Below, piece after piece: positions 301 to 55,815 of a DNA stretch of 64,000 nucleotides. A program made the position numbers and the translations under genes. How positions within the stretch are numbered: position 1 is the stretch's first letter; each line of letters starts with the position of its first letter. The stretch spans positions 1,103,001 to 1,167,000 of the forward strand of contig WPIO01000081.1 of assembly GCA_009760855.2 (NCBI GenBank), given 5' to 3'. The notes under the pieces were generated by a model that saw only the letters and a program-made list of their open reading frames with translations, did not search any database and had not been told where the DNA came from. Source of the stretch: Cristatella mucedo. Lineage: Eukaryota; Bryozoa; Phylactolaemata; Cristatellidae.

Positions 301-480
301 AACACGACTCCAATCACTGGCACATCAATAATGATGAGCGATCAACGCCAGCCTCCAGCCTGGGCGATCCTGAGACTGGGTCACTTGACCTTTGGGATCC
401 TATGGCTTCTGAGTACCGAGCGCTGACAAACTCCTATAAAGTTAACCCTGATGATCCTGAATATATCAATCAGGGCTATA
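301..480 (+). CDS. Tudor gene exon 1 (of those visible): acidic linker
   Basis: The acceptor is a pyrimidine-rich tract ending in TCTTCAG at 300 and the donor is a consensus GTAAGT at 481. The exon begins with two bases of a split codon and ends with one. It encodes about 60 residues rich in Asp, Ser and Pro, including [19 protein letters not shown]. No domain is recognised. Its end phase fits the next exon only if that exon starts at 2057, which supports both calls. Confidence 0.65.
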
Positions 481-23555: not shown

Positions 23556-23762
23556 CTACACATTGGAATCACCCTGCAACAGGCTCGGTGGAATAGTCAT
23601 CGCTTCCTCGTCCACCTTGCCGATGGTGGTGCGGCCGCTTGTGGTCATGCTAAAGAACGCTTCCGCAGTATTCGCCTCATCAGCATGCATTTCTTCGGCT
23701 GCCATCACTGGGTTCTCAACACCGTCGAGCGTGTAGGCGTCATTGCCGCGGCTTTGACTTTT
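23556..23762 (-). CDS. mucin-like gene last exon: acidic cytoplasmic tail
   Basis: After the acceptor CCTTCATTGTAG the exon reads 68 codons in phase 0 to TAG. The reading includes NDAYTLDGVENPVMAAEEMH and FFSMTTSGRTTIGKVDEEAM. Composition is acidic, Met- and Ala-rich, without hydrophobic stretches, as expected of a cytoplasmic tail. A possible donor just before the stop (CAGG|GTGATT) leaves the exact end open. Confidence 0.6.
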   Translation of the reverse strand, partial: KSQSRGNDAYTLDGVENPVMAAEEMHADEANTAEAFFSMTTSGRTTIGKVDEEAMTIPPSLLQGDSNV

Positions 23763-35700: not shown

Positions 35701-38700
35701 AGGATTAATTTCTCTTGGCCCTGCGGGGTATTGCCCTGCTTTCTGAGTTAAAGGCAATCATTTTAGAAGCTTTTTCTATCCAGCTCACTCAGCGGACCGA
35801 GCAACGCGGACAGCGACTAGCGAGTCCGCCGCGGACAGACACGTGAGCGATTCTCGTAGCCATATTGCTTCTGGATTACCACAGATATTCGTGATACTAT
35901 TTTGTTTGTTTGGGCAGAGGGCAGGATATGCAAACTTCAAGCACCCGAGAGCTCAAATATATCGCTCACCTGCAACAGTAGCGTAATATTCGAAGGCAAA
36001 CTCCCGAAGAGAGACGTTAGATTGCCTCGGGCTTCCGTCAAGCAGGTGCACCTCAATGCCGGAAAGTTGGCGCCTCTTTCTTCGTGCTGGGTCACTCTTG
36101 ATGCTCTTGCTGCTCAGTAGGTCTCTGAGAAGGACCGTGAAATTAGTCCATGCTTCATTCACCTAAAATTATTTGGCCGGAAAACTTTTCGAATCGATCC
36201 CATGACGCCGCTTGCTATGACTGTCTCAGAAAGCAACTCAGTAACCGTAACTGAATTCCCCGGTCCATCTAGCATTGTGGGGTTTCAATTGTGGCGTACA
36301 CCTGTACCCAGGCTGGGTTCGGTTGGCTGGGACCGGACGGCTATAGTGAGGGTTAGGGTCACCGGCTAGGCCAGAGTCGGACCTACGGCACGGCCGGCTG
36401 TATGCAGTGACGTGAGGTCACCGGGGCTCTTGGGTACGGGAAGTTGGCCGAGTAATTCGTGGTGTTGGAGGCTCCCGGTCTCGCCGAGTTATGCACCTGG
36501 ATTCGTGCAGGCGTGCTCCGGCGATGCTGCCACGCACGCAAGGGAACGAGTACCCAAGGCCCGAGCGGAGCTGGATAGCTCGCTCGTTGTTGACTTGTTT
36601 TTATTCCGCGTTCCCCGTGTAGCGTGTTCGTGACCCCCGTGTGTTGGCGTCTTTCGGTGGAAGCTTACGACTGTGGTAGTTGTCGACTCGGACTAGCCAG
36701 CAGTTACTCAGCCAGCCGGGTTTTCGACGGCGTACGCTCGTACTGTTGGATTTGGAGTCGGTACAACGACAGGACTGCAGAAGCCGACTGACCCCAAATA
36801 ACACGTTTGTTCGCGCTTGCTGCGTCGTCTTGCGCCCCCGTAGTTTACTGTGTATAGGACCCTCCCTGTAGACTTGTTTAGTTCCCCTGTTTTTGTTGGC
36901 GCATGTGTTGTTATAAAGAGGTTTAACCTGACGGCTTCTCGTCTTACCCTAGCTCGGCGGCATGGCGAGCGGCAGCGTGGCCGGAGTATGGCGGGAATTA
37001 GCCTCTGACCCCTGGAACCCGGTTACAAAGGCACAAGCTTTCAGTTTGGTAAAGAGGAGCTCTCTTAGAGGCTAGCCTTTGGTAAGAAGCTTCGGGCTAA
37101 AGTAGGAAAAGCAATTTTCAGATAATATTAATAATAATAATAATGCACTTGATAAAGCGCCCTCAGAGAACTCAATCTCTCTCTAGGTACTTTACATTTG
37201 GTGCAAATGGAAATGCAATTGAATGGTGAGTTATATCATGCTAGATAAACAAACAACATGAATAACATGGTTAGGGGTGAAATGCATAGGGTCAGCATGC
37301 AAGTGTGGTTAGTGGCAGCAAGCACAGTCTCAGCACGCATAAGCACATCAAGGACGAATCACAGGGACCCACTAAATGCTGTCCTAAATAAGTGTGTTTT
37401 TAGGTTCTTTTTAAATGTGGTCAGGTCAGGGGATGTTCTGATGCAGGGCGGGAGGGAGTTCCAGGCTTTGGGAGCATACGAACTAAATGCATGGTCTCCA
37501 AAGGATTTGAGGTTTGTACGAGGTATTTGTAGACTGTTGGATTCCGAAAAGCGGGTGGTACGAAGCTTGGCCTGATGGGGGAGTATGTCGGAGAGATAGG
37601 CTGGAGCCAAAGAATAAAGTGACCTAAAAGTGAGCGACAAAACCTTGAAGTCAATCCGTTGCTTGACTGGTAGCCAGTGCAGGTCGGCAAGAAGTAGTGT
37701 AATGTGGCAACTGCGACGCTCACGACAGACAAGCCTAGCTGCAGAGTTTTGCACGAGCTGCAATCGCCTGATCGCACATGCTGGTAGGCCAGTAAGCAGT
37801 GAGTTGCAGAAGTCGAGACGGGATGTCACGAATACAATGACCAACTTGGACGTGGTATCCTCATCTAAACATGCCCGAATTTTAGCAATGTTATGAAGCT
37901 GAAAATAAGCAATGGAGTAAGGAGCCTTTCTATGACCGGTTTCTGAAAGAAGTCCTGGTAGATTACGACTCTCAAGATCGGGATCAATATCGCTGTGCCA
38001 TAATCCTGCCCAAATCCCATTGACCCAGCCGTCTGCATACTGCCTGCATACCGCCGATTCATTTGATGAGCTTTCACAAGACTTTTACATATCGCACCGA
38101 TGACTCATGCTATTCGTAGCCAAAGACGATGATATTAGTCCCTTCAAAACCGACACGCGTGAGTAGCGGTATAGTGTGCAGGGTGGCAGTGTAGTGTGGT
38201 GGTTTCTACGTTCACGACGGACAAGATGCAGAGTTTAGCACCGACTGCAGGCAATTTCTTGCTTGAACTGGGAGGCCTGAGAACGGTAAGTTACACTACT
38301 CTGGACAGGATGTCGAGAATGCACGGACCAGCTTTGTTTGGATCATGGACCTTATCATGCAAGGGAGGGGGCTGAATTTATCAAATGAAAGAGTAGAACA
38401 GGTCATTTGCTGTCCAGCGAATGTCGAATGAGTCGAGCGGGCTACAACCGGCACAACAGATCAGCTAGGCGAGAACGACCAGATACATAACGGCCATGTA
38501 GATCAGTATAAATAAGGGTTTTAGTCAATAACCTCTTTGGTAACCAGATCAGCATCACCTCCAATCTGGCTAGAGGTAAAGATAACTGAACATCTCTGTG
38601 TGGCGATCGAGTGTAGAGTTAATCATCACTGAGCTGCGCCACATTGCGACCGGGTGTAAACTCTTGCGGTTCTTTAATGTGACTATATCCTTGATAAAAG

Positions 38701-41700
38701 TTTACGATTTCTACTTGTCTTAGCCTTCCAAAAAGCATGCGTAAATACCGCCGATTTGTCAGCACTGCTGCGAGTGTATGCCGATCTAGTCTTTCAAATC
38801 GGTAATCTTAGACCTATTCTTAAAAAGCCTGGATTAGACACAGAGGTCCTAGCAAACTATCGTCCGGTTTCCCTTCTTCCGTTCTTACCAAAGATTCTTG
38901 AAAAAATTGTTGCTAAGCAGCTAGTTGAACATGTTGAAAATAATGGAATGTCAGAAACATTTCAATCAGGGTTCAAGAGGCAGCACTCTACCGAAACTGC
39001 TCTCCTCCGTGTTAACAATGACATTCTACGTGGCAACGACGACGGGAATGTCACTGCCCTAGCTCTGCTAGATCTGTCTGCTGCCTTCGACACCATTGAT
39101 CACGAAGTTCTGCTTGAACGACTGAGAACAACGATCGGTCTGGCAGACGAAGCACTGGCGTTGTTTAAATCATACTTGTCTGATCATGTTCAATCCGTGT
39201 CGTGTGGGGGTCAGGTCTCAGACATGAGAAGGGTCACCTGTGGAGTCCCTCAAGGGTCTGTACTCGGTCCCTTGCTGTTCTCCATTTATACGCAACCTCT
39301 GGGAAAAGTGATTAAGGCCCATGGAATAGAATATCACTTCTATGCTGACGATACTCAGTTGTATTTGTCATTTAAACCGTCGGAATCTGCTGCAGCAACT
39401 GAGAAACTGAATGCTTGCCTTGCCGATATTCGATCCTGGATGTCGGAATACTTCCTGAAATTAACTGACGATAAAACCGAACTGCTGCTCATAGGACACC
39501 CTAAGCGTGTGGCTGGATTAAAAGGCTTTGCTGTTCTAATAGGTGATGATATTGTGCGACCTTCACCACGTGCTCGTAATCTAGGTGTCGTGTTCGACAG
39601 CTGCCTCAATTTCAAAAGCTACATTCAGAAGACTGCCTCTACAGCTAGCCATGACATCCGATCCCTATTTAAGATTAGGAGCTGTCTCCACAGTGGCTTG
39701 TAAAAAATTTAACTAGCTCTTTATTTCTGTCTCGGCTTGATTATTGTAATTCCCTTTTGGCTGGGCTACCAAAGAAAGCTATTATGCCACTACAGCGGAC
39801 TATGAATATGGCTGCAAGGCTGGCCTTCAAGTCCCAGCGGTTTGAGCACGTGTCACCTCTCCTGAAAGAGCTAGGATGGTTGCCGGTTGAGCAAAGGATA
39901 CAGAGCAAAGTTCTTACGCTGACCCACAAGGCCCGCCACGGCTTAGCTCCTTCGTAATTAGCTGAACTGCTGCATCAGTTTCAGCCTGTTCGTGCCCTGA
40001 GGTCCTGTGTGGAGAATAAATTAGCTGTCCCATTCCTCCACTTAAAGACAGTTGGCGACAGAAGCTTTAGCTCTGCAGGTCCTAGACTGTGGAACTTGCT
40101 TTCACATCACTTACGCAACGACAACTACTCTCCAACTGCCGACTATGGCACATCTTTTTCAGCGGTCCTGAGCTGCTACCTCTATGCTACTCACTACCTC
40201 AACTGCTCTCCTGACTCTGCTATGCTTCTTAATTTCTCTTTGTTCCGTGAGATGAAGTCTGTTGGCTACCGAATGCATACCGAAAACCATTTAGGCTGTG
40301 TTTGAGCTGTAAAAAAACTCCTGCATAACATTCACCTAGTGTTTGTGGCTTTGTAGAGTTACAGACGTAGGTTCGTTATAGCTGTTCCTACGGCATTCGG
40401 TAGCCAAGAGACATCCCATCAATTAAAAATCTCACGCATAATCGAAAGACAACAGGAAGGGGGCTAGTCAACCTGAGGGAGACAAAAGAACATTGAGTAG
40501 CCATTAGGTTCGGAAAACATCTGATCGTCGAAGCTGGAAAAGGAAACTGATAGAAAAGGCAACTGATGGTAAGGCCTGACCAAGAGAGGACGATTCCATC
40601 ATCTTACAAAACAAAGAGAAAGTAAACAGCATGTATGTATATATAGCCTATAACCACATACAGTGGCACGTAAGACATATATAAGATAAGACATATACAT
40701 AAGACATATACAGTACATATAGTTTCAAATAAATATGCACATGTTCAGATAAATTACATAAATCAATGTAAAGAGTCTTAAAAATGTGTAAAGCCTACGG
40801 ACTGATTAACGATTAGCAGGCCATTTCTCAAGCCCGTAAGCTGCTTAGGTAGCTGGTGAATCACTTACCGTTACGTCGGCTGCCAGCTCCATGGTCGTTG
40901 TTATTACATTAGCCTTAAATTCAGGTGGCAGTAGGTCATAAAAGTGTCTTGAGTTAGCATGTAACTGTGGACCTGTGAAGAACTGAGTTGTTTGCAAAGC
41001 AGGCTTTTTATGGTACTGCTCGTGCGAAGTAACAATTCGCTAAGCTGCTGATGCTCTACTCTGCGATGGAGCCTTGCAAAGGGGGAGGGTACAAGCACGG
41101 CCCCCAACGCGAGGCAAGCGGTCATCGATTGTGCTTGAAAAGCTGCCCACACTGCTGCGGCAGCAGCAGCATTTGCTGCAACAGTTCGGGCTGGCTTCAG
41201 GACTATGCAGAGGCAGATAGTTTGCCATCACTAAACTAACCGAGAACTGTGTAAGAGAGTGTGCTCCATTGATTCTTGTCTATGAGCATGCTGTGTGATA
41301 ATGAAGATGTCAAGCAGCCAGGTTTCTGACTGCATGCACATGGTACACATTTGCATGGCAAATTAGTCTAACTTCGTCAGTAATGCTCTTTGATGATCTT
41401 GGTCAAACTCCCTGAAGGTGCTAGCTAGGAGTAGTTGATCCTGAAAAGAGTTGTCTCGTTCACATGCAGCTGAATGCTGTACTGCATGGTAAGGATGTGA
41501 GACTGAATTGCAGCTACAAGCTCCATGCTTATCAAAAGGGGCTACAGTTGAAGGTATGCTGGTTAAACAGGCTCATTGTATAAAGCAGACGAAGAGCCTT
41601 AGCGGCTTGCAGCTGGCAATAAGAGATTGCCCGCAGCATTAATCAAACCGACGACCTGGGTAGTGAAGAGCAAGCACCTTAACCCGGAGCTAAAACCTTG

Positions 41701-44700
41701 ACCTTAACCTGGAGCTAAGACCTTGACCTTAACCTGGAGCTAAGGGAAAGCATTAGGCCCAGGCCATTTCTAGGCTATCTCATCTGTGAAAGATGAGTGA
41801 TTAGCGTGCCTCGTTCTTGTACTACATCGGTAACCGATTTCTGGATAACCTGCTTGAATTCTCTTTAGTGGAGTCATTTACTGAAAGCTATAGCTAAGGT
41901 AAAGATTGCGAAAGACTTAGCTTTGCTAGCCCCTATCGACCAGAAGAAACTGAAAAAATCATGGTGAAGAACTAATTGGCTCCTAGAAGTCAGCTACATT
42001 GTTTTCTGGTTTTGATCGTCAGAGATCCGATAGTGACGACCTAGGAATTTATTTCAAGCATGATTTTATTTACCATTCAGTTGCATTTCACTTTGCAGCA
42101 AATGTAAAGCACCTAGAAAGAGATTAAGTTCTCTGAGGGCGCTTTATCAAGTGCGTTATTATTATTATTATTTTTTTTTCTTTCGAGTTGCCCGATTTAA
42201 GAACCAATTGAGGCAGCTGGTATTAATCTGTATGTGGGACGACCAGGAGTGACGATGAACAGCCAAAGGGGCCAGACAAGAAAGTGCCACGCTTTCCGAT
42301 GGAAAGCTGCTCGTAGAGACTCACCTCCTCCACTCTGCTGCTCATCTCCAACTGTCTCGCTATTACTTGCTTTCATGGTAGCATCTGCATTTCCCCCAGT
42401 CTGTTGTGTCGAGACTTCAACTACCACACTTGAAGTCAAAACCGAATTTGCATGTTGCAATCCCGGAGTAGGCATGCTGACTGACACGCGAATGAAGAGA
42501 AACAGGTAGTGAGATTCATTAAGAGCAGCCTCCATCAACACCCGTTTCGACAGTAGCTGTAGTGGCTGTAGTAGCTGTAGCAGAAGCTTTTAAACGTGGC
42601 AGAAGCAAGAGCCAAAGGAGCAGCAAAGGTTTGCAGCAGCAGCTGCATTGGAAGCAGCAAAGGTAGCAGCAACAGGAGCAGCCGCAGCAGCAGCAGCAGC
42701 AGGCACGTCAGAAGCAACAGCAGCACAATATAGACCAGCACAGTGACAGCATAGACTAACATTGCAGTGTTGTTGTACCAGGGTTAGTAGTTTGGGTATT
42801 CGTGATTCCGGATACTGGTTCAGCTTCGGTTAGTGCTGTGACATTTGTACTGCTACCCATGTTGATAGTTTGAAATAATGTCATTTTGGGAACCAAAGTA
42901 CGTTTTTCCTGCAGCATTAAACAAAATGTGCAGCTACCTCTGTTGATGGTTTTGATTGCTATAGATTCAGTCACCAATGCACTTTGGTAGTAAGGTGCTG
43001 TGACACTTGACACTGTGACACTGTTACTGCTAACAGTGTGGATAATTTCGACAGTTGTCAGGTAGGTTATACATAACTCTTCTGTCTGGAATGCTGTTAG
43101 GCCTAAACTGGTGCCTGTAAAGACTGTATTCCTTGTTGTGCTTTTGGTATGTGCCATATCGTTTGTCAGAGAGTAAGACTGCCGGTGCTGCTATCTGCAT
43201 TGACGGTTTACCATGTTGTCATTTCTTATATTGATGCATCTGTTCGGGCTGACTGCAAAGCCTGAGCTTCTACAACGACTGCCAATTAGCACAGGAATCT
43301 TCTCAGAAACGAGTGGCAATTCTGCCAGGACAGCACAATGGCCCGAACTTGTGCTACCAGCAGCCCGTGCAAGAAACTAAGCTGACAGTCTGGAGTGCTG
43401 AAGTGTCTTACCTGACTCATTTTGCTCTGCCTGCTCTGTACCACTTGAACTGCTGCCGGAAATGATTATTATAACAGGAGTATGTACGATCGTGAGGTTA
43501 GTTTCTTTCGGTTGAGCCGTATAAACTAAATTGGTGCTGATGGTGCTCGAAAACGTAGTAGTCGTGCCTGTCGGTAAAGTGATTTCTTCCATCTGCAATA
43601 TGCCTTCTAGATTGCTAAGTAAGTTAACAGTCTTGGTGGTTAAAGTGTCGTCAGCTGAGGCAGCCAGAAAAGTTGTGTCTGTGCCACCTGTACTGCTGCC
43701 TGAAATGATGATGTGCGATTTCGTCTGATCACTCATCGGTCCTGTCTGTCCCTGTCCTGCATCACGAGCATCATAAACGGTAGTGGTGCTATAAGAATCA
43801 CTTATCGTCGCTTTCGACAAAACAGTTTCAAGCTTAGCCGTATCACAGTCTGTGATACTTGCTGATGTGACAGTATGAAGCGCTGAAGTGTCGTTAGCTG
43901 GTACATTCCTATCGGAACCAATTAAATGCAGAAGTGTGTGGTTGGTCGTTGGTGTAGTGCTGACCAGTTGTGCCATGTGATGTGAACTGATGGTAAAGGT
44001 ACTGGATAACTCAGAAGTCGTGCGAATCACAGAACTAGTTAATTGCTTCTGACGTTCATTTTCAGTGTTGCTGGGTGAACGTGCTGAATGAAATGACGTG
44101 GAGCTATCGATGCTGAAATACTCAGTAGTTTTTTCTGCCTGAGGCATAGTGTGTTTCTGCTGAGATACGGCGTCTGTGCTGTTAATAGTGTTGACACTCT
44201 GGTGTGTTGTAGTGTGGTTAGCTGTCGTACCGGGCTCGGACTGTTCTGTGCCACTTGAACTGCTGCCGGAACTGATTTTTTGACCAGGTGTCTGAATGTT
44301 CGTAGAGTTAGTTTCCATCTGTTGATCCGTATGACTTGAATAAGTGCTGATGGTGCTCGAATACTTAGTAGTCGTCGCAGATGGTGATGTGATTTCTTCC
44401 GTCAGTGATATGCCTTGTGCATTGGTACCTAAGTTGACAGTCTTGGTGGTTGAAGTGTCGTCAGGAAAGGAAGCCGGCAGAGTTCTGTCAGTGCCACCTG
44501 TACTGCTGCCTGAACTGATGATTTGCAAAGTTGTCAAATAGCTCAACGGTCCTGTCTGTCCCCGTTCTGTTGAACGACCCTCAGAAATGGCAGTGGTGCT
44601 ATAAGAATCACTTATCGTCGCGGTCGACGACGTTGTTTCAAGCTTAACCGTCTCACTGTCAGTGATACTTGCTGATGTGGCAGCCTGAAGCGTTGAAGTT

Positions 44701-47700
44701 TCGAAAGTTTGTACAATGCTATCGGAACCGGTTACATGCAGAAGTGTGTGGTTAGTCGTCCATGTAGTGTTTAGCGGTTGTGCTGTACCAGGTGAACTTA
44801 TAGTGGCAGTGCTGGATAACTCAGTAGTCGTGGGATTCGCAGAACTAGTTCCTTGCTTCCAACCTCCATCTTCCGTGTCGCTGGGTGTGTTGACAGTCTG
44901 GATTGTTGAAGTGTCGAATGCAGATGAATCCATCTCGGGTTGCGCCGTGCCTGCCGTAACGTTGTCGGAGCTGATCGTTAGCACTGGTGTCAGGTCGGTT
45001 ATCGGTTCACTTTGTTCTAGACGTGGTGAATGAAATGACGTGGAGCTATCGATGCTGAAATACTCAGTAGTTTTTTCTGCCTGAGGCATAGTGTGTTTCT
45101 GCTGAGATACGGCGTCTGTGCTGTTAATAGTGTTGACACTCTGTGGTGTTGTAGTGGGGTTAGCTGTCGTACCGGGCTCGGACTGTTCTGTGCCACTTGA
45201 ACTGCGGCCGGAACTGATTTTTTGACCAGGTGTCTGAATGTTCGTAGAGTTAGTTTCAATCTGTTGATCCGTATGACTTGAATAAGTGCTGATGGTGCTC
45301 GAATACTTAGTAGTCGTCGCAGATGGTGATGTGATTTCTTTCGTCAGTGATATGCCTTGTGCATTTTTACCTAAGTTGACAGTCTTGGTGGTTGAAGTGT
45401 CGTCAGGAAAGGAAGCCGGCCGAGTTCTGTCAGTGCCACCTGTACTGCTGCCTGAAAAGATGATTTGCAAAGTTGTCAAGTAGCTCAACGGTCCTGTCTG
45501 TCCCCGTTCTGCTGAACGACCCTCAGAAATGGCAGTGGTGCTATAGGAATCACTTATCGTCACTTTAGACAGCGTTGTTTCAAGCTTAGCCGTCTCAGTG
45601 TCAGTGCTACTTGCTAACGTGGCAGCCTGTAGCGTTGAAGTGTCGTTAGCTCTTACACTGCTACCGGAACAGATTACATGCAAAAGTGTACGGTTGGTCG
45701 TCCGTGTAGTGTTTACCGGTTGTGCTGTATCTGGTGAAGTGATGGTGGCGGTGCTGGATAACTCAGTAGTCGTGGGAATCGCAGAACTAGTTCCTTGTTT
45801 CCGACCTCCATCTTCCGTGTCGCTGGGTGTGTTGACAGTCTGGATTGTTGAAGTGTCGAATGCAGAGGAATCCATCTCGGGTTGCGCCGTGCCTGCCGTA
45901 ACGTTGTCGGAGCTGATCGTTAGCACTGGTGTCAGGTCGGTTATGGGTTCACTTTGTTCTAGACGTGGTGAATGAAATGACGTGGAGCTATCGATGCTGA
46001 AATACTCAGTAGTTTTTTCTGCCTGAGGCATAGTGTGTTTCTGCTGAGATACGGCGTCTGTGCTGTTAATAGTGTTGACACTCTGTGGTGTTGTAGTGTG
46101 GTTAGCTGTCGTACCGGGCTCGGACTGTTCTGTGCCACTTGAACTGCTGCCGGAACTGATTTTTTGACCAGGTGTCTGAATGTTCGTAGAGTTAGTTTCA
46201 ATCTGTTGATCCGTATGACTTGAATAAGTGCTGCTGGTGCTCGAATACTTAGTAGTCGTCGCAGATGGTGATGTGATTTCTTCCGTCAGTGATATGCCTT
46301 GTGCATTGGTACCTAAGTTGACAGTCTTGGTGGTTGAAGTGTCGTCAGGAAAGGAAGCCGGCAGAGTTCTGTCAGTGCCACCTGTACTGCTGCCTGAACT
46401 GATGATTTGCAAAGTTGTCAAGTAGCTCAACGGTCCTGTCTCTTTCCGTTCTGCTGAACGACCCTCAGAAATGGGAGTGGTGCTATAAGAATCACTTATC
46501 GTCACTTTGGACAGCGTAGTTTCAAGCTTAGCCGTCTCACTGTCAGTGATACTTGCTAACGTGGCAGCCTGAAGCATTGAAGTGTCGTTAGCTTGTACAC
46601 TGCTACGAGAACTGATTACATGCAAAAGTGTATGGTTGGTCGTCCGTGTAGTGTTTACCGGTTGTGCTGTACCAGGTGAACTTATAGTGGCGGTGCTGGA
46701 TAACTTTGTAGTTGTGGGAATCGCAGAAATAGTTCCTTGTTTCCGACCTCCATCTTCCGTGTCGCTGGGTGTGTTGACAGTCTGGATTGTTGAAGTGTCG
46801 AATGCAGATGAATCCATCTCGGGTTGCGCCGTGCCTGCCGTAACGTTGTCGGAGCTGATCGTTAGCACTGGTGTCAGGTCGGTTATCGGTTCACTTTGTT
46901 CTAGACGTGGTGAATGAAATGACGTGGAGCTATCGATGCTGAAATACTCAGTAGTTTTTTCTGCCTGAGGCATAGTGTGTTTCTGCTGAGATACGGCGTC
47001 TGTGCTGTTAATAGTGTTGACACTCGGGGGTGTTGTAGTGTGGTTAGCTGTCGTACCGGGCTCGGACTGTTCTGTGCCACTTGAACTGCTGCCGGAACTG
47101 ATTTTTTGACCAGGTGTCTGAATGTTCGTAGAGTTAGTTTCAATCTGTTGATCCGTATGACTTGAATAAGTGCTGATGGTGCTCGAATACTTAGTAGTCG
47201 TCGCAGATGGTGATGTGATTTCTTCCGTCAGTGATATGCCTTGTGCATTTTTTACCTAAGTTGACAGTCTTGGTGGTTGAAGTGTCGTCAGGAAAGGAAG
47301 CCGGCGGAGTTCTGTCAGTGCCACCTGTACTGCTGCCTGAACTGATGATTTGCAAAGTTGTCAAGTAGCTCAACGGTCCTGTCTGTCCCCGTTCTGCTGA
47401 ACGACCCTCAGGAATGGCAGTGGTGCTATAGGAATCACTTATCGTCACTTTAGACAGCGTTGTTTCAAGCTTAACCGTCTCAGTGTCAGTGCTACTTGCT
47501 AACGTGGCAGCCTGTAGCGTTGAAGTGTCGTTAGCTCTTACTCTGCTATCGGAACCGGTTACATGCAGAAGTGTGTGGTTAGTCGTCCATGTAGTGTTTA
47601 CCGGTTGTGCTGTACCAGGTGAACCTATAGTGGTGGTGCTGGATAACTCAGTAGTCGTGGGAATCGCAGAACTAGTTCCTTGTTTCCGACATCCATCTTC

Positions 47701-50700
47701 CGTGTCGCTGGGTGTGTTGACAGTCTGGATTGTTGAAATGTCGAATGCAGATGAATCCATCTCGGGTTGCGCCGTGCCTGCCGTAACGTTGTCGGAGCTG
47801 ATCGTTAGCACTGGTGTCAGGTCGGTTATCGGTTCACTTTGTTCTAGACGTGGTGAATGAAATGACGTGGAGCTATCGATGCTGAAATACTCAGTAGTTG
47901 TTTCTGCCTGAGGCATAGTGTGTTTCTGCTGAGATACGGCGTCTGTGCTGTTAATAGTGTTGACACTCTGGTGTGTTGTAGTGTTGTTAGCTGTCGTACC
48001 GGGCTCGGACTGTTCTGTGCCACTTGAACTGCGGCCGGAACTGATTTTTTGACCAGGTGTCTGAATGTTCGTAGAGCTAGTTTCAATCTGTTGATCCGTA
48101 TGACTTGAATAAGTGCTGATGGTGCTCGAATACTTAGTAGTCGTCGCAGATGGTGATGTGATTTCTTCCGTCAGCGATATGCCTTGTGCATTGGCACCTA
48201 AGTTGACAGTCTTGGTGGTTGAAGTGTCGTCAGGAAAGGAAGCCGGCAGAGTTCTGTCAGTGCCACCTGTACTGCTGCCTGAACTGATGATTTGCAAAGT
48301 TGTCAAGTAGCTCAACGGTCCTGTCTGTCCCCGTTCTGCTGAACGACCCTCAGGAATGGCAGTGGTGCTATAGGAATCACTTATCGTCACTTTAGACAGC
48401 GTTGTTTCAAGCTTAGCCGTCTCACTGTCAGTGCTACTTGCTAACGTGGCAGCCTGTAGCGTTGAAGTGTCGTTAGCTCTTACTCTGCTATCGGAACCGG
48501 TTACATGCAGAAGTGTGTGGTTGGTCGTCCGTGTAGTGTTTTACGGTTGTGCTGTACCAGGTGAACTTATAGTGGTGGTGCTGGATAACTCAGTAGTCGT
48601 GGGAATCGCAGAACTAGTTCCTTGTTTCCGACATCCATCTTCCGTGTCGCTGGGTGTGTTGACAGTCTGGATTGTTGAAATGTCGAATGCAGATGAATCC
48701 ATCTCGGGTTGCGCCGTGCCTGCCGTAACGTTGTCGGAGCTGATCGTTAGCACTGGTGTCAGGTCGGTTATCGGTTCACTTTGTTCTAGACGTGGTGAAT
48801 GAAATGACGTGGAGCTATCGATGCTGAAATACTCAGTAGTTGTTTCTGCCTGAGGCATAGTGTGTTTCTGCTGAGATACGGCGTCTGTGCTGTTAATAGT
48901 GTTGACACTCGGGGGTGTTGTAGTGGGGTTAGCTGTCGTACCGGGCTCGGACTGTTCTGTGCCACTTGAACTGCTGCCGGAACTGATTTTTTGACCAGGT
49001 GTCTGAATGTTCGTAGAGTTAGTTTCAATCTGTTGATCCGTATGACTTGAATAAGTGCTGATGGTGCTCGAATACTTAGTAGTCGTCGCAGATGGTGATG
49101 TGATTTCTTCCGTCAGCGATATGCCTTGTGCATTGGCACCTAAGTTGACAGTCTTGGTGGTTGAAGTGTCGTCAGGAAAGGAAGCCGGCGGAGTTCTGTC
49201 AGTGCCACCTGTACTGCTGCCTGAACTGATGATTTGCAAAGTTGTCAAGTAGCTCAACGGTCCTGTCTCTTCCCCGTTCTGCTGAACGACCCTCAGAAAT
49301 GGCAGTGGTGCTATAGGAATCACTTATCGTCACTTTAGACAGCGTTGTTTCAAGCTTAGCCGTCTCACTGTCAGTGATACTTGCTAACGTGGCAGCCTGT
49401 AGCGTTGAAGTGTCGTTAGCTCTTACTCTGCTATCGGAACCGGTTACATGCAGAAGTGTGTGGTTAGTCGTCCATGTAGTGTTTACCGGTTGTGCTGTAC
49501 CAGGTGAACTTATAGTGGTGGTGCTGGATAACTCAGTAGTCGTGGGAATCGCAGAAATAGTTCCTTGTTTCCAACCTCCATCTTCCGTGTCGCTGGGTGT
49601 GTTGACAGTCTGGATTGTTGAAGTGTCGAATGCCGAGGAATCCATCTCGGGTTGCGCCGTGCCTGCCGTAACGTTGTCGGAGCTGATCGTTAGCACTGGT
49701 GTCAGGTCGGTTATCGGTTCACTTTGTTCTAGACGTGGTGAATGAAATGACGTGGAGCTATCGATGCTGAAATACTCAGTAGTTTTTTCTGCCTGAGGCA
49801 TAGTGTGTTTCTGCTGAGATACGGCGTCTGTGCTGTTAATACTCTTGACACTCGGGGGTGTTGTAGAGTGGTTAGCTGTCGTACCGGGCTCGGACTGTTC
49901 TGTGCCACTTGAACTGCTGCCGGAACTGATTTTTTGACCAGGTGTCTGAATGTTCGTAGAGTTAGTTTCAATCTGTTGATCCGTATGACTTGAATAAGTG
50001 CTGATGGTGCTCGAATGCTTAGTAGTCGTCGCAGATGGTGATGTGATTTCTTTCGTCAGTGATATGCCTTGTGCATTGGTACGTAAGTTGACAGTCGTGG
50101 TGGTTGAAGTGTCGTCAGGAAAGGAAGCCGGCGGAGTTCTGTCAGTGCCACCTGTACTGCTGCCTGAACTGATGATTTGCAAAGTTGTCAAGTAGCTCAA
50201 CGGTCCTGTCTGTCCCCGTTCTGATGAACGACCCTCAGAAATGGCAGTGGTGCTATAGGAATCACTTATCGTCGCGGTCGACGACGCTGTTTCAAGCTTA
50301 ACCGTCTCACTGTCAGTGATACTTGCTGATGTGGCAGCTTGAAGCGTTGAAGTTTCGAAAGTTTGTACACTGCTATCGGAACCGGTAACATGCAGAAGTG
50401 TGTGGTTAGTCGTCCATGTAGTGTTTAGCGGTTGTGCTGTACCAGGTGAACTTATAGTGGCGGTGGTGGATAACTCAGTAGTCGTGGGAATCGCAGAACT
50501 AGTTCCTTGTTTCCGACCTCCATCTTCCGTGTCGCTGGGTGTGTTGACAGTCTGGATTGTTGAAGTGTCGAATGCAGAGGAATCCATCTCGGGTTGCGCC
50601 GTGCCTGCCGTAACGTTGTCGGAGCTGATCGTTAGCACTGGTGTCAGGTCGGTTATCGGTTCACTTTGTTCTAGACGTGGTGAATGAAATGACGTGGAGC

Positions 50701-53700
50701 TATCGATGCTGAAATACTCAGTAGTTTTTTCTGCCTGAGGCATAGTGTGTTTCTGCTGAGATACGGCGTCTGTGCTGTTAATAGTGTTGACACTCTGTGG
50801 TGTTGTAGTGGGGTTAGCTGTCGTACCGGGCTCGGACTGTTCTGTGCCACTTGAACTGCTGCCGGAACTGATTTTTTGACCAGGTGTCTGAATGTTCGTA
50901 GAGTTAGTTTCAATCTGTTGATCCGTATGACTTGAATAAGTGCTGCTGGTGCTCGAATACTTAGTAGTCGTCGCAGATGGTGATGTGATTTCTTCCGTCA
51001 GTGATATGCCTTGTGCATTGGTACCTAAGTTGACAGTCTTGGTGGTTGAAGTGTCGTGTGGAAAGGAAGCCGGCAGAGTTCTGTCAGTGCCACCTGTACT
51101 GCTGCCTGAACTGATGATTTGCAAAGTTGTCAAGTAGCTCAACGGTCCTGTCTCTTTCCGTTCTGCTGAACGACCCTCAGAAATGGGAGTGGTGCTATAA
51201 GAATCACTTATCGTCACTTTGGACAGCGTAGTTTCAAGCTTAGCCGTCTCACTGTCAGTGATACTTGCTAACGTGGCAGCCTGAAGCATTGAAGTGTCGT
51301 TAGCTTGTACACTGCTACGAGAACTGATTACATGCAAAAGTGTATGGTTGGTCGTCCGTGTAGTGTTTACTGGTTGTGCTGTACCAGGTGAACTTATAGT
51401 GGCGGTGCTGGATAACTTTGCAGTCGTGGGAATCGCAGAAATAGTTCCTTGTTTCCGACCTCCATCTTCCGTGTCGCTGGGTGTGTTGACAGTCTGGATT
51501 GTTGAAGTGTCGAATGCAGATGAATCCATCTCGGGTTGCGCCGTGCCTGCCGTAACGTTGTCGGAGCTGATCGTTAGCACTGGTGTCAGGTCGGTTATGG
51601 GTTCACTTTGTTCTAGACGTGGTGAATGAAATGACGTGGAGCTATCGATGCTGAAATACTCAGTAGTTGTTTCTGCCTGAGGCATAGTGTGTTTCTGCTG
51701 AGATACGGCGTCTGTGCTGTTAATAGTGTTGACACTCTGGTGTGTTGTAGTGTTGTTAGCTGTCGTACCGGGCTCGGACTGTTCTGTGCCACTTGAACTG
51801 CGGCCGGAACTGATTTTTTGACCAGGTGTCTGAATGTTCGTAGAGCTAGTTTCAATCTGTTGATCCGTATGACTTGAATAAGTGCTGATGGTGCTCGAAT
51901 ACTTAGTAGTCGTCGCAGATGGTGATGTGATTTCTTCCGTCAGCGATATGCCTTGTGCATTGGCACCTAAGTTGACAGTCTTGGTGGTTGAAGTGTCGTC
52001 AGGAAAGGAAGCCGGCGGAGTTCTGTCAGTGCCACCTGTACTGCTGCCTGAACTGATGATTTGCAAAGTTGTCAAGTAGCTCAACGGTCCTGTCTGTCCC
52101 CGTTCTGCTGAACGACCCTCAGGAATGGCAGTGGTGCTATAGGAATCACTTATCGTCACTTTAGACAGCGTTGTTTCAAGCTTAGCCGTCTCACTGTCAG
52201 TGCTACTTGCTAACGTGGCAGCCTGTAGCGTTGAAGTGTCGTTAGCTCTTACACTGCTACCGGAACTGATTACATGCAAAAGTGTATGGTTGGTCGTCCG
52301 TGTAGTGTTTACCGGTTGTGCTGTATCTGGTGAAGTGATGGTGGCGGTGCTGGATAACTCAGTAGTCGTGGGAATCGCAGAACTAGGTCCTTGCTTCCAA
52401 CCTCCATCTTCCGTGTCGCTGGGTGTGTTGACAGTCTGGATTGTTGAAGTGTCGAATGCAGAGGAATCCATCTCGGGTTGCGCCGTGCCTGCCGTAACGT
52501 TGTCGGAGCTGATCGTTAGCACTGGTGTCAGGTCGGTTATCGGTTCACTTTGTTCTAGACGTGGTGAATGAAATGACGTGGAGCTATCGATGCTGAAATA
52601 CTCAGTAGTTGTTTCTGCCTGAGGCATAGTGTGTTTCTGCTGAGATACGGCGTCTGTGCTGTTAATACTCTTGACACTCGGGGGTGTTGTAGAGTGGTTA
52701 GCTGTCGTACCGGGCTCGGACTGTTCTGTGCCACTTGAACTGCTGCCGGAACTGATTTTTTGACCAGGTGTCTGAATGTTCGTAGAGTTAGTTTCAATCT
52801 GTTGATCCGTATGACTTGAATAAGTGCTGATGGTGCTCGAATGCTTAGTAGTCGTCGCAGATGGTGATGTGATTTCTTTCGTCAGTGATATGCCTTGTGC
52901 ATTGGTACGTAAGTTGACAGTCGTGGTGGTTGAAGTGTCGTCAGGAAAGGAAGCCGGCGGAGTTCTGTCAGTGCCACCTGTACTGCTGCCTGAACTGATG
53001 ATTTGCAAAGTGGTCAAGTAGCTCAACGGTCCTGTCTGTCCCCGTTCTGATGAACGACCCTCAGAAATGGCAGTGGTGCTATAGGAATCACTTATCGTCG
53101 CGGTCGACGACGCTGTTTCAAGCTTAACCGTCTCACTGTCGGTGATACTTGCTGATGTGGCAGCTTGAAGCGTTGAAGTTTCGAAAGTTTGTACACTGCT
53201 ATCGGAACCGGTAACATGCAGAAGTGTGTGGTTAGTCGTCCATGTAGTGTTTAGCGGTTGTGCTGTACCAGGTGAACTTATAGTGGCGGTGGTGGATAAC
53301 TCAGTAGTCGTGGGAATCGCAGAACTAGGTCCTTGTTTCCGACCTCCATCTTCCGTGTCGCTGGGTGTGTTGACAGTCTGGATTGTTGAAGTGTCGAATG
53401 CAGATGAATCCATCTCGGGTTGCGCCGTGCCTGCCGTAACGTTGTCGGAGCTGATCGTTAGCACTGGTGTCAGGTCGGTTATCGGTTCACTTTGTTCTAG
53501 ACGTGGTGAAGGAAATGACGTGGAGCTATCGATGCTGACATACTCAGTTTTTTTTTCTGCCTGAGGCATAGTGTGTTTCTGCTGAGATACGGCGTCTGTG
53601 CTGTTAATAGTGTTGACACTCGGGGGTGTTGTAGTGTGGTTAGCTGTCGTACCGGGCTCGGACTGTTCTGTGCCACTTGAACTGCTGCCGGAACTGATTT

Positions 53701-55815
53701 TTTGACCAGGTGTCTGAATGTTCGCAGAGTTAGTTTCAATCTGTTGATCCGTATGACTTGAATAAGTGCTGATGGTGCTCGAATACTTAGTAGTCGTCGC
53801 AGATGGTGATGTGATTTCTTCCGTCAGTGATATGCCTTGTGCATTGGTACCTAAGTTGACAGTCTTGGTGGTTGAAGTGTCGTCAGGAAAAGAAGCCGGC
53901 AGAGTTCTGTCAGTGCCACCCGTACTGCTGCCTGAACTGATGATTTGCAAAGTTGTCAAGTAGCTCAACGGTCCTGTCTGTCCCCGTTCTGTTGAACGAC
54001 CCTCAGAAATGGCAGTGGTGCTATAGGAATCACTTATCGTCGCGGTCGACGACGTTGTTTCAAGCTTAACCGTCTCACTGTCAGTGATACTTGCTGATGT
54101 GGCAGCCTGAAGCGTTGAAGTTTCGAAAGTTTGTACACTGCTATCGGAACCGGTTACATGCAGAAGTGTGTGGTTAGTCGTCCATGTAGTGTTTACCGGT
54201 TGTGCTGTACCAGGTGAACTTATAGTGGCGGTGCTGGATAACTCAGTAGTCGTGGGATTCGCAGAACTAGTTCCTTGTTTCCGACCTCCATCTTCCGTGT
54301 CGCTGGGTGTGTTGACAGTCTGGATTGTTGAAGTGTCGAATGCAGATGAATCCATCTCGGGTTGCGCCGTGCCTGCCGTAACGTTGTCGGAGCTGATCGT
54401 TAGCACTGGTGTCAGGTCGGTTATCGGTTCACTTTGTTCTAGACGTGGTGAATGAAATGACGTGGAGCTATCGATGGTGATATACTCAGTAGTTTTTTCT
54501 GCCTGAGGCATAGTGTGTTTCTGCTGAGATACGGCGTCTGTGCTGTTAATAGTGTTGACACTCGGGGGAGTTGTAGTGTGGTTAGCTGTCGTACCGGGCT
54601 CGGACTGTTCTGTGCCACTTGAACTGCTGCCGGAACTGATTTTTTGACCAGGTGTCTGAATGTTCGTAGAGTTAGTTTCAATCTGTTGATCCGTATGACT
54701 TGAATAAGTGCTGATGGTGCTCGAATACTTAGTAGTCGTCGCAGATGGTGATGTGATTTCTTCCGTCAGTGATATGCCTTGTGCATTGGTACCTAAGTTG
54801 ACAGTCTTGGTGGTTGAAGTGTCGTCAGGAAAGGAAGCCGGCCGAGTTCTGTCAGTGTCACCTGTACTGCTGCCATAACTGATGATGTGCAGAGTTGTCT
54901 CGGCGGTCCTCGGTCCAGTGTGTTCCTGTCCTGCTTTACGACCCTGATAAGTGGCAGTGGTGCTATAAGAATCACTTATCGTCACTTTAGACAGCGTAGT
55001 TTCAAGCTTAGCCGTCTCACTGTCAGTGATACTTGCTAACGTGGCAGCCTGTAGCGTTGAAGTGTCGTTAGCTTGTACACTGCTACCGGAACTGATTACA
55101 TGCAAAAGTGTACGGTTGGTCGTCCGTGTAGTGTTTACCGGTTGTGCTGTATCTGGTGAAGTGATGGTGGTGGTGCTGGATAACTCAGTAGTCGTGGGAA
55201 TCGCAGAACTAGGTCCTTGCTTCCGACCTCCATCTTCCGTGTCGCTGGGTGTGTTGACAGTCTGGATTGTTGAAGTGTCGAATGCAGAGGAATCCATCTC
55301 GGGTTGCGCCGTGCCTGCCGTAACGTTGTCGGAGCTGATCGTTAGCACTGGTGTCAGGTCGGTTATCGGTTCACTTTGTTCTAGACGTGGTGAATGAAAT
55401 GACGTGGAGCTATCGATGCTGAAATACTCAGTAGTTTTTTCTGCCTGAGGCATAGTGTGTTTCTGCTGAGATACGGCGTCTGTGCTGTTAATAGTGTTGA
55501 CACTCTGGGGTGTTGTAGTGTGGTAAGCAGTCGTACCGTGTTCGGACTGTTCTGTGCCACTTGTAGAGCCCCCGAAACTGATTTGTAGACCAGGTTTCCG
55601 AATCGTCATAGAGTTAGTTTCTTTCGGTCCAGCCGTTTGACTAGAATTGGTGCTGATGGTGCTTAAATACTCAGTAGTGGGTCCAGTCAGCGACGTTCCT
55701 CTTTCCGTCTGTGATTTGCCCTTCGGGTATGTAGCTGAGCTTAAAGTCGGGTGTGTTGGACTTTCTTTTGCCGATCCATCCGATTCGGGTTGTTTTTCGC
55801 CGCCTGAATTCAAAC
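23556..55815 (-). CDS. giant membrane-tethered mucin-like protein gene (5' end not found)
   Basis: Eight minus-strand exons (55815-43412, 42480-42325, 40972-40869, 36162-35970, 28182-28113, 28044-27909, 24820-24581, 23762-23556) fit together with every phase agreeing. The product would start with more than 4,000 residues of Ser/Thr-rich tandem repeats. A short linker, a basic RRKRR cleavage-like site and an alpha/beta membrane-proximal domain follow, then a transmembrane helix and an acidic tail. This order is that of membrane mucins. The region around RRKRR and FEYYATV recalls the KIAA1549/UPF0606 family, an impression from memory only. The likely role is a heavily glycosylated cell-surface coat. 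The signal-peptide exon is not identified. Two 1-bp insertions and one stop break the giant exon. Confidence 0.6.
23763..24580 (-). other. intron between transmembrane and tail exons
   Basis: About 820 bp, AT-rich, with no repeat copy or extra exon recognised. Confidence 0.5.
24581..24820 (-). CDS. mucin-like gene transmembrane exon
   Basis: The acceptor CTCCATCTCGTTGCAG (phase 0) and donor AACGAAG|GTAATT (phase 0) bound the exon. It encodes an N-glycan site at the first residue (NYT) and a Thr/Pro-rich stalk. The single helix is LWAILGTTSALVGLIILVTV plus ALWLI, followed by NRRRSR, the usual stop-transfer charge. If the donor is not used the frame runs on to a stop at 24506. An alternative acceptor at 24837 would change the upstream phase. 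Confidence 0.65.
24843..27908. other. intron before the transmembrane exon
   Basis: It contains the 25.46-25.66 kb tandem repeat, a short (ATAC)-type run near 25765-25790 and a CAGCTG-rich patch at 26644-26690. Open frames near 27186-27642 occur on both strands and none is convincing. Confidence 0.4.
25460..25660. repeat. imperfect tandem repeat, period about 79-92 bp
   Basis: GTGCACCGGCCAACCCTGAT recurs as GTGCACTGGCCGACCCTGAT 79 bp later and as GTGCACCGGCCCCTCTCGGT 92 bp after that. ATCTGGCCACCAGCTGGT is also repeated. GC-rich relative to the surroundings. Confidence 0.8.
27909..28044 (-). CDS. mucin-like gene candidate exon (membrane-proximal)
   Basis: The strong acceptor CACTGTATTGTTGCAG is followed by one base completing a Gly codon, then ILTKQTGEPKINVLAKECSI and NAPLLSIAEEHSIDVTEPEK. 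The donor AAG|GTAGTC ends in phase 0, matching the transmembrane exon's better acceptor. No domain on its own; the main support is phase and strand. Confidence 0.4.
28113..28182 (-). CDS. mucin-like gene candidate 70-bp exon
   Basis: Reads SLGILKIDSLLDEEPVMLRQ then MW between an AG at 28183 and a GT at 28112. It starts with two bases and ends with two, exactly what its neighbours need. Splice sites are weak, so this is the least certain exon. Confidence 0.35.
28750..29180 (+). mobile_element. LINE 3' fragment of a third type
   Basis: Plus strand reads ERMELAYSY or WNSLTATVTICNDLAAFKSQ then LKRHLH, the C-terminal signature of CR1/L2-type elements. A 3' UTR follows, ending GACAAACAAAG and an (ATT)n-like run near 29165-29182. 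It does not match families 1 or 2 closely. Confidence 0.5.
29340..30110 (+). mobile_element. LINE family 1 3' half, plus strand
   Basis: Reads [32 protein letters not shown], then in another frame [20 protein letters not shown]. The family 3' UTR words follow (GTGGGTCATTGTGATTCGTC-like) and a worn tail (GAGCGCCTAGGAGAGACTC). Stops and frameshifts make it non-coding. Confidence 0.7.
30345..31160 (-). mobile_element. two old LINE fragments on the minus strand
   Basis: 30345-30640 matches the family 2 3' end (AATGTAATGTATCTTCGCCT at the terminus, then GGCTAAGCGGCTTTTGGTAC). 30780-31160 matches the RT region around motifs B and C (GGTACAGCAGTGTATCATCG, GGGTACCCCAGTATTTTAGA on plus). Both degenerate. 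Confidence 0.6.
31598..31805 (+). repeat. second copy of the dispersed repeat at about 1580-1800
   Basis: See the entry at 1580. This copy is followed by GGAGGGAAAATGACCCCTGC and lacks the palindrome found after the first copy. Confidence 0.6.
31978..32155 (-). mobile_element. tRNA-derived SINE (family A)
   Basis: The plus strand shows AGCGGATTTAACAGCCTCTT, CCTTTACGGCTATCATCACC and GATAAAGGATCGCCCACC. The B-box complement GGATTCGAACCCACGACCTC and an A-box-like end near 32130-32150 follow. A near-complete copy. Confidence 0.8.
32160..32285 (-). mobile_element. second, partial tRNA-derived SINE in tandem
   Basis: Contains GGCTTGCAGCAGCAATAAAG and AATCGAACCCATGACCTCGG with a head to about 32285. 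It sits directly after the previous SINE in the same orientation, as a tandem insertion or a dimer. Confidence 0.7.
32300..32415 (-). mobile_element. LINE family 1 fragment cut by LINE family 2
   Basis: Matches the family 1 C-terminal region (GCTTTGGGAGCATGCAAACT, then GGAGGTAGTACGATG on plus). It stops at the family 2 3' end at 32416. Confidence 0.6.
32416..32935 (-). mobile_element. LINE family 2 3' end, minus strand
   Basis: Minus strand reads TVGDRSFSSAGPRLWNSLPQ and DNKLAVPFLRLK and continues to the HKARHG-equivalent near 32900. The 3' UTR ends at ACGATGTATCTCCGTCAG. It is 5'-truncated near 32935. Confidence 0.8.
32957..33920 (-). mobile_element. LINE family 1 3' third, minus strand
   Basis: (AAT)n and the hairpin tail lie at 32957-33030, then the 3' UTR with a 20-bp tandem duplication at 33068-33107. 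The RT C terminus reads [37 protein letters not shown] and [20 protein letters not shown]. The insertion begins at the VKPSVIHKFERLTLKIGS-equivalent near 33920. Confidence 0.85.
33930..35430 (-). mobile_element. LINE family 1 older copy, minus strand
   Basis: Decayed RT in order: LQSGFRANLSSESALLW and LLERFLSRLGITSSALHW (34828-34604), IGSDGISTEASTRNMGVRSK (34261-34052). Upstream linker words extend to about 35430. Many stops. Confidence 0.7.
35470..35530 (+). mobile_element. LINE family 1 tail-only relic
   Basis: GTGCCTAGAACAGATTTATT then TCTCTGAGAGTGCTATAGGA and TTTTATTGTCGTTAG, a worn hairpin tail on plus. Confidence 0.4.
35970..36162 (-). CDS. mucin-like gene exon with RRKRR site and SEA-like half-domain
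   Basis: The acceptor AAATAATTTTAG (phase 0) and donor GCAG|GTGAGC (phase 1) bound the exon. It begins VNEAWTNFTVLLRDLLSSKS, an amphipathic helix with one N-glycan site. RRKRRQ, a furin-like basic site, follows. Next come IEVHLLDGSPRQSNVSLREF and EFAFEYYATV, predicted beta strands. Helix, cleavage site and strands in this order recall SEA-type and KIAA1549-type membrane-proximal domains. Confidence 0.55.
36430..37025 (+). repeat. LTR-like dispersed repeat, copy 1
   Basis: About 590 bp align with 56430-57020, including TCTCGCCGAGTTATGCA, GCGTGCTCCGGCGATGC, TTCGCGCTTGCTGCGTCGTC, GGACCCTCC, TATAAAGAGGTTTAACCTGA and GGCATGGCGAGCGGCAGCGT. A TATAAAG box near the 3' side and the lack of coding capacity suit a solo LTR. 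The left border is not clear, so the class is uncertain. Confidence 0.7.
37123..37912 (-). mobile_element. LINE family 1 3' third, minus strand
   Basis: Hairpin tail and (AAT)n at 37123-37195, 3' UTR, and an RT C terminus open for 161 codons ([73 protein letters not shown]). Abrupt 5' truncation at 37912. One of the younger insertions. Confidence 0.85.
37913..38799. other. stretch without recognised gene
   Basis: A plus-strand reading at about 37917-38030 (EPFYDRFLKEVLVDYDSQDR then DQYRCAIILPKSH) looks protein-like but is short, with no match I recognise. No repeat copy seen. Confidence 0.3.
38800..40370 (+). mobile_element. LINE family 2, best copy (5'-truncated)
   Basis: CR1/L2-type reverse transcriptase open from 38756 to 39703: [73 protein letters not shown] stop at 39701-39703 and a frame change precede DFCNSLL-equivalent sequence. 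C-terminal pieces then follow (MNMAARLAFKSQRFEHVSPL; TVGDRSFSSAGPRLWNLLSH). The 3' UTR runs to about 40370. Inactive. It differs from family 1 throughout and has a different 3' end. Confidence 0.85.
40869..40972 (-). CDS. mucin-like gene exon, 104 bp
   Basis: Found only by phase: acceptor CAACTCAGTTCTTCACAG (two leading bases) and a consensus donor ACG|GTAAGTGA (phase 0). It reads PQLHANSRHFYDLLPPEFKA then NVITTTMELAADVT. It is the only piece seen that bridges the phase gap between 42325 and 36162. Reads like the start of an alpha/beta domain. Confidence 0.5.
41565..41700 (-). mobile_element. tRNA-derived SINE (family A), worn
   Basis: TGGTTAAACAGGCTCATTGT, GAGCCTTAGCGGCTTGCAGC and AATCAAACCGACGACCTGGG match the family in order. 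Confidence 0.6.
41677..41744. repeat. 25-bp tandem repeat, about 3 copies
   Basis: CCTTAACCYGGAGCTAA recurs at 41677, 41702 and 41727. It arose from the head of the SINE. Confidence 0.85.
42095..42170 (+). mobile_element. LINE family 1 tail-only copy, plus strand
   Basis: GCAAATGTAAAGCACCTAGA, AAGAGATTAAGTTCTCTGAG and GGCGCTTTATCAAGTGCG, then (TTA)n and a T run. It retains the hairpin. Confidence 0.75.
42325..42480 (-). CDS. mucin-like gene exon after the repeat exon
   Basis: A long pyrimidine tract (GTTTCTCTTCATTCGCGTGTCAG) precedes the exon, and GGAG|GTGAGT follows. It encodes SMPTPGLQHANSVLTSSVVV and a Ser/Thr/Gly-rich hydrophilic stretch ending DEQQSGG. Start (two bases) and end (one base) fit the flanking exons. 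Confidence 0.6.
42535..42762. repeat. CAG/GCA-rich low-complexity tract
   Basis: Plus strand shows runs of GCAGCAGCAGCAGCAGCAGG and GTAGCTGTAGTGGCTGTAG. The Leu-rich minus-strand frame here is a by-product of the triplet bias. Confidence 0.7.
42756..43157 (-). pseudogene. decayed mucin modules downstream of the giant exon
   Basis: An open minus frame reads YLTTVEIIHTVSSNSVT and later TLFQTINMGSSTNVTAL with TNTQTTNPG. These align with the array words YLTTLQIISSGSSTGGT and STTKTVNLG. They lie between the giant exon's donor (43411) and the next acceptor (42481). No splice pair fits the phases, so I treat them as fossil modules now in intron 2. Confidence 0.5.
43412..55600 (-). repeat. 942-bp coding tandem repeat array, about 13 units
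   Basis: The anchor AGACGTGGTGAATGAAATGA recurs at 45019, 45961, 46903, 47846, 48788, 49731, 50673, 51615, 52557, 53499, 54441 and 55383, with a worn version near 44077. Spacing is 942 bp except for two intervals of 943, which contain the two frameshifts. Within each 314-residue unit four modules of about 78 residues share the frame T-T-T..SST..S....T....ISSGSS..GT......DTST..TVN. So the array is a repeat of repeats. Confidence 0.95.
43412..55815 (-). CDS. giant repeat exon of the mucin-like gene (interrupted frame)
   Basis: The exon runs from the acceptor CTGTTTCTGGCAG (55816) to the donor GAGTCAG|GTAAGA (43411), 12,404 bp. Removing the two extra bases leaves 2 + 4,133 codons + 1, matching both neighbours' phases. 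The product is dominated by Ser and Thr, with almost no Cys. A typical 314-residue unit holds seven N-glycan sequons (NTT, NHT, NDT, NST, NHT, NST, NVT). The breaks are an extra base at 49268-49272, TAA at 48543-48541 and T6 instead of T5 at 47248-47253. They could be real mutations, or read or assembly errors in a highly similar array. Confidence 0.8.

Follow-up and report, generated by a model that had tools for sequence, protein, structure and literature searches.

Gel-forming mucins carry VWD, C8, and cystine-knot domains, and most, though not all, transmembrane mucins have a SEA domain before the membrane. MUC6 is a gel-forming, secreted mucin, MUC5B is also secreted and has super-repeats that contain Cys subdomains, and MUC3A, MUC3B, MUC12, and MUC17 carry SEA and EGF domains. 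To go by the title of a 1997 report by Desseyn, MUC5B is said to have a single exon of more than 10 kb, with a super-repeat built of irregular 29-residue repeats. Three articles describe 29-mers and Cys domains in MUC5B (PMC10983947), 24 repeat units, most of them 507 bp (169 amino acids) long, in a 12,294-bp sequence of MUC6 exon 31 (PMC6269512), and MUC3A, MUC3B, MUC12, and MUC17 as a cluster of membrane mucin genes that are related in structure and contain tandem-repeat domains (PMC9578598).

The stretch of Cristatella mucedo DNA analyzed here, called the window, comprises the 64,000 nucleotides from base 1103001 to base 1167000 of contig 667 (assembly of 572 Mb in 688 contigs). It holds a tandem array, probably the second exon of a gene (gene A) encoding a mucin-like glycoprotein that crosses the membrane once and has a stalk grown by nested in-frame amplification; a paralogue, gene B, amplified another exon. 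The gene A protein would comprise a signal peptide, a stalk that is very long, unstructured, and rich in Ser and Thr, a short, conserved juxtamembrane region, one transmembrane helix, and a cytoplasmic tail (Table 1).

Table 1. Predicted exons of gene A, subdivisions of its repeat array, and the gene B signal exon. Positions refer to the window unless marked as contig positions.
Feature	Position	Strand	Description
Signal-peptide exon, gene A	contig 1176263-1176203	minus	MMDGILSWCSLILLTASSVA; phase-1 donor; 17.4 kb upstream of giant exon
Giant exon 2, gene A	43412..55815	minus	12,404 bp; phase 1-1; U1-U12 full, truncated U13, divergent U14
U1	54788..55723	minus	divergent 5' edge unit; 87-91% identity to other full units
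U2-U12	44424..54787	minus	homogeneous array core; 93.5-98.6% mutual identity
U13 + U14	43412..44423	minus	3' end of array
Frame break 1	49262..49276	minus	U7; +1 nt at G/A run; two G/A-run variants meet
Frame break 2	48535..48549	minus	U8; TAA; unit length unchanged
Frame break 3	47243..47259	minus	U9; +1 nt, an extra A in A run
Exon 3, gene A	42761..43114	minus	phase 1-1; diverged 27-residue repeats
Exon 4, gene A	42325..42480	minus	phase 1-1
Exon 5, gene A	40869..40972	minus	phase 1-0; start of conserved juxtamembrane region
Exon 6, gene A	35970..36162	minus	phase 0-1; conserved juxtamembrane region; RRKR motif, presumably furin-like
Transmembrane exon, gene A	24581..24820	minus	phase 0-0
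Cytoplasmic-tail exon, gene A	23556..23762	minus	68 residues; stop codon aligned with gene B stop
Signal exon, gene B	contig from 1274966		MAGRQSTTASVAWRCSLILLVASSVA

The limits given to the array in the original prediction were right, the minus-strand stretch being bounded by an acceptor (tctggcag/GTTTG at 55815) and a donor (GAGTCAG/gtaaga at 43412), both of phase 1. Its 942-bp period was recovered as the top lag (identity 0.737) when the DNA of region 43000-56500 was compared with itself at lags of 50-5999, with further lags of 243, 456, 486, and 699 below it, and where about 13 copies had been estimated we count 12 full units running from 55723 down to 44424, then a truncated unit (U13, consisting of M1 and part of M2), and then a divergent edge unit (U14, consisting of M3, M4, and part of M1, with 78-79% identity to full units). 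The full units measure 942 bp except for U1 (936) and U7 and U9 (943 each), the lengths of U4 (939) and U5 (945) reflecting only the placement of one boundary codon. Four exact repeats of at least 300 bp were found (near multiples of 942 only), spaced 4, 3, 1, and 5 units apart, so that multi-unit blocks seem to have been exchanged, and the homogeneous core between the divergent edges U1 and U14 is the usual sign of exchange homogenizing the interior of an array. In a search of the 572-Mb genome in which the best candidates were scored, 16 of 16 matches of the 942-bp unit fell at the array locus, and no second locus for the unit was found among them. This confinement to one locus speaks against the array being a non-coding satellite in an intron, open by chance, as do a period divisible by 3, the exact phase 1-1 borders, the Ser/Thr composition, divergent edges that remain open, and a 27-residue pattern common to the paralogue; we regard a satellite as highly improbable, although the period and homogeneity are satellite-like and dN/dS among units (0.72, 95% interval 0.48-1.11) does not show purifying selection on the array.

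Four modules make up the 314-residue unit, as had been predicted, though they are of 81, 81, 71, and 81 residues and not of 78 each. Modules 1, 2, and 4 share 52-55% mutual DNA identity without gaps, and over its first 171 bases module 3 matches the others at 51-55% of positions, also ungapped; other in-phase lags give 28% (sd 2%). No pair of modules stands out. At the protein level, scores against shuffles reach z values of 5.5-7.2 among modules 1, 2, and 4 and of 0.6-1.7 for module 3 alone, and local hhalign probabilities are 27-78% among the former and 2-12% with module 3; given these weak protein scores, the membership of module 3 rests on DNA and register. A lag of 81 amino acids scored 136, whereas no lag in any of 5000 shuffles scored above 84, and once the 10-residue gap of module 3 was allowed for, the six top lags of 475 were 81, 162, 243, 324, 405, and 486, which are mutually dependent and not separate tests. 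A module HMM, run on every frame of 25 residues or more in the window and 10 kb upstream, gave 55 matches across the exon's four open pieces, with one negative-score match at the exon 5' end dropped. Two modules are split by frame breaks, so these correspond to 53 whole or partial modules of 81 or 71 amino acids, and no significant module was found outside the giant exon in the same frames (best elsewhere E 2.1).

The repeat has three levels where two had been described: a 27-residue seed is present three times per module, there are four modules per unit, and the units form the array. The 81-bp (27-aa) period within modules, which the original prediction missed, appears as an identity of 0.363 at an offset of 81, compared with 0.276 ± 0.019 at the other 39 codon offsets; none of 1000 permutations of codon columns reached this value at any offset. 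When the three 27-mer classes of the giant exon were compared pairwise as protein, the permutation p values were 0.55, 0.28, and 0.03, and one of the three comparisons was best in a neighboring register; gene B, described below, supplies stronger evidence for this level. As to how the unit arose, for which two doublings or a fourfold growth of a module followed by amplification as a block had been proposed, modules did come first and the block afterward, but two clean doublings are not favored over fourfold growth, since the gap-corrected identity at the two-module lag of 486 (0.544) barely exceeds that at the one-module lag of 243 (0.534). Wherever a unit has a module 3, edge units included, that module carries the 10-residue deletion, which therefore precedes the array. 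The sub-diagonals expected of a dot-plot exist, but the module lengths place them at 243 and 456 bp and not at about 235 bp.

The exon as assembled is not uninterrupted, and not every repeat step in it is a multiple of three: it breaks into four open pieces that fall in three different frames (12,404 nt is 2 modulo 3), with 1 nt added in U7 and in U9, which at 943 bp are 2 of the 12 full units, and a TAA in U8, where, relative to the other units, a G is missing and an A is added in adjoining runs. These three breaks in units 7-9 count against our reading of gene A, and they would be real if gene A were a recent pseudogene or null allele with no translation past unit 7, which we consider unlikely. 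In repeats, errors of the long-read consensus typically produce small run changes of this kind. All three lie within or beside short homopolymers, and they fall in consecutive interior units, where polishing would be hardest. In human MUC5B, according to a preprint, a premature stop is predicted in 16 of 206 assembled haplotypes, and the authors hypothesized homopolymer-related assembly artefacts; that the frame was re-established for just three of eight reassembled haplotypes speaks for the pseudogene reading (PMC10983947). The unit dN/dS, being indistinguishable from 1, is also in keeping with lost function, whereas the five downstream exon pairs stay in frame between gene A and gene B, the stops of the two genes align, and no single-change stop occurs among 109 distinct variants in nine units where 2.9 would be expected without constraint, an expectation that assumes transition bias and makes a weak argument, as chance alone gives none about 6% of the time. 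We infer that the breaks are either assembly errors or a damaged allele, and not the marks of an old pseudogene, and of these two we favor assembly error; a giant repeat exon can resemble a pseudogene in an assembly.

The exon is Ser/Thr-rich, nearly Cys-free, and mucin-like, as first described (Ser+Thr 39%, Pro 5.5%, 4 Cys in the 4,128 residues counted), and the N-glycan sequons, put earlier at about 90, number 82. These values would fit a glycosylated extended chain. The stalk would be densely O-glycosylated and would probably serve as an extended surface coat. The predicted product has, as transmembrane mucins do, a long Ser/Thr-rich tandem-repeat ectodomain. That the repeats instead fold, for example into a beta-solenoid adhesin stalk, seems to us quite improbable: the gene B 27-mers are modeled from one sequence as regular strand pairs every 27 residues, but with a mean pLDDT of 43, and the 314-residue unit, modeled with ten rows, has a mean pLDDT of 28 and only two predicted strands, with Ser+Thr making up 39% of the exon. 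Two long pieces of the four open giant-exon pieces had no Pfam match above the cut-off (best E 0.0035) and a PDB search with one unit found nothing at E up to 10, which fits the earlier statement that the module matches no named mucin.

In exons 5 and 6 of gene A or gene B, no SEA domain was matched at E up to 10, a search in which HMMER filters drop most matches above ~0.1, so that a strongly diverged fold could escape, and no PDB relatives of these two exons were found. Likewise, no VWD, C8, or cystine-knot domain was found in two of the four giant-exon pieces and in exons 3 and 4 and the transmembrane frames of gene A, nor in exons 5 and 6 and the transmembrane and tail regions of both genes. 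The best of the weak Pfam matches, from the gene B transmembrane and tail region to Glycophorin A (E 0.0006), is below the cut-off. Exon 6 contains RRKR in gene A and RRRR in gene B, which we take to be a furin-like motif, and our guess from this motif is that a cut stalk may be held near the membrane.

The exons of gene A are proposed to be spliced as laid out in Table 1 on the basis of sites, phases, and the paralogue. The signal, transmembrane, and tail exons have compatible phases and paralogue support, with the signal peptide and helix judged by eye, and one linking exon, from phase 1 to phase 0, was not found by a conserved-small-exon search between 35970 and 24820, which returned mostly matches that recur in the window, the others being the exon 6 border itself and several short matches. 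Stretches at window ~41100-41600 (minus strand) and contig 1237.9-1238.4 kb, lying between exons 4 and 5, are conserved between genes A and B in several frames; the reading is open in B and broken in A, and these stretches could represent either an exon that has been lost or non-coding DNA under conservation. Fragments of non-LTR reverse transcriptase, presumably CR1/Rex-like, lie in the window at 10715-13271 (minus), 38678-39703 (plus), 37359-38084 (minus), and 33119-33598 (minus), several of them inside gene A introns, and similar pieces occur in gene B and upstream of gene A. On the plus strand, open frames at window positions 5710-6090 and 10041-10391 have Tudor-domain matches (E 6e-6 and 1e-7) and are apparently exons of a neighboring gene on the strand opposite gene A.

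Some observations were also made on the mitochondrial contig of this assembly, contig 688. Its COX1 reads well with code 5 (AGR as Ser, ATA as Met, AAA as Lys; judged by eye), and a Pfam scan confirmed ND1, CYTB, ND4, ND5, ATP6, COX3, ND3, and COX1; the presumed ND6 piece had no match at E 1e-4, and the presumed ND2 piece matched a general antiporter family only. The block ND1-ND6-CYTB-ND4L-ND4-ND5 resembles that of molluscs such as Katharina and other lophotrochozoans, which tentatively places the animal among the lophotrochozoans. At ~11.6-14.6 kb, some open frames and tRNA-like matches recur at a 2,115-bp step, and inverted copies of the open frames lie near 2.5-3.4 kb. COX1-like pieces on contigs 166, 83, 549, and 299, outside the mitochondrial contig, probably represent mitochondrial DNA copied into the nucleus, or else stray pieces.

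Genes A and B are paralogues. A genome search with the transmembrane exon hit two places, gene A itself and contig 1227766-1228002 (57% identity, E 7e-19), and gene B, which lies in direct orientation 98.7 kb from gene A (signal exon to signal exon), has counterparts of the signal, juxtamembrane, transmembrane, and tail exons, collinear with those of gene A. The gene B signal exon was one of four candidates from a simple filter, the one similar to that of gene A (tblastn E 0.002 in 50 kb; 66% DNA identity over 333 bp, E 5e-18). Searching the genome with exon 3 of gene A returned the exon itself and six stretches of a 974-residue open frame of gene B at ~1239.8-1242.7 kb (E 6e-6 to 1.7); two further hits, both weak (E 0.8 and 3), lie outside these places. 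This frame has 81- and 162-bp periods (27 and 54 residues), and the repeat exon of gene B is the counterpart of exon 3 of gene A, enlarged with 27-residue repeats.

The 27-mer profile HMM of gene B scores the exon 3 frame of gene A at 12.5, a value reached by 0 of 394 scored shuffles, but fails to separate the giant-exon unit from shuffles, 295 of 440 scored shuffles doing as well or better; the module HMM sees gene B and exon 3 weakly, with 13 and 16 of 500 shuffles reaching their scores. When the 27-column profile of the giant exon was laid against the 15 full 27-mers of gene B, one register stood out (19.8, next 4.8), and it was matched by 0 of 5000 permutations (column patterns, composition removed). 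Of the 15 genome matches of the gene B repeats at E up to 10, 14 are in genes A and B, six of them in the giant exon at E 0.4 to 9, which taken alone are meaningless. Gene B, searched as far as its signal exon with an HMM that is weak on the gene B repeats themselves, gave no giant-exon homologue above noise.

Pooled over the five exon pairs of genes A and B, dS is about 0.49 and dN about 0.27 (summed counts), with a dN/dS of 1.35 on 20 changes for exon 5 alone, and pooled dS among nine core units is 0.056, from which it follows that the array was last homogenized long after the duplication of A and B. Exchange resets the clock, so the core value dates the last homogenization and not the first amplification. 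The order of steps is seed, module, four-module unit with deletion, and array. By our account, the 27-residue seed would have tripled to give the 81-residue module, four modules, one minus 10 residues, would have formed the 314-residue unit, and unequal exchange, partly of multi-unit blocks, would have made and homogenized the array, with gene B amplifying a different exon made of the same ancestral seed. Exons of phase 1-1 can gain whole in-frame units with their neighbors undisturbed, and unequal exchange then makes stalk length easily changed, while the signal, juxtamembrane, membrane, and tail parts stay alignable between A and B. The comparison of the two genes suggests that in sister genes different exons can become the site of amplification. 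A more specific proposal, possible but doubtful at present, is that of two sister membrane mucins that share one 27-residue seed in different exons and hierarchies and that have a new SEA-less juxtamembrane tether cut at a conserved furin-like site; if it is true, stalk length would be free to evolve with the anchoring and signaling parts held.

Among the best-ranked matches in the open-access literature (title and start of abstract, few subscription journals), there was no description of this gene family or of three-level nesting in a membrane mucin. Giant repeat exons, as in MUC5B and MUC6, and membrane mucin clusters are already known, and it is the history of the array that is unusually legible: mucin repeats usually erase their own history, and here three nested layers, together with a paralogue that has the lowest layers only (27 and 54 residues), make the order of steps readable. 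The sequence described for exon 31 of MUC6 is nearly equal in length to the giant exon. The MUC3 cluster resembles genes A and B in consisting of neighboring related membrane mucin genes with tandem repeats, but no SEA or EGF domain was found in the scanned exons of A and B. MUC5B is like gene A in having one exon of more than 10 kb with short repeats nested in a super-repeat, and nested repeats inside one giant exon are indeed what we find in gene A; unlike MUC5B, gene A has no Cys subdomains between its repeats, with its 4 Cys in 4,128 residues, and it has a transmembrane exon and three nested levels of repeat.
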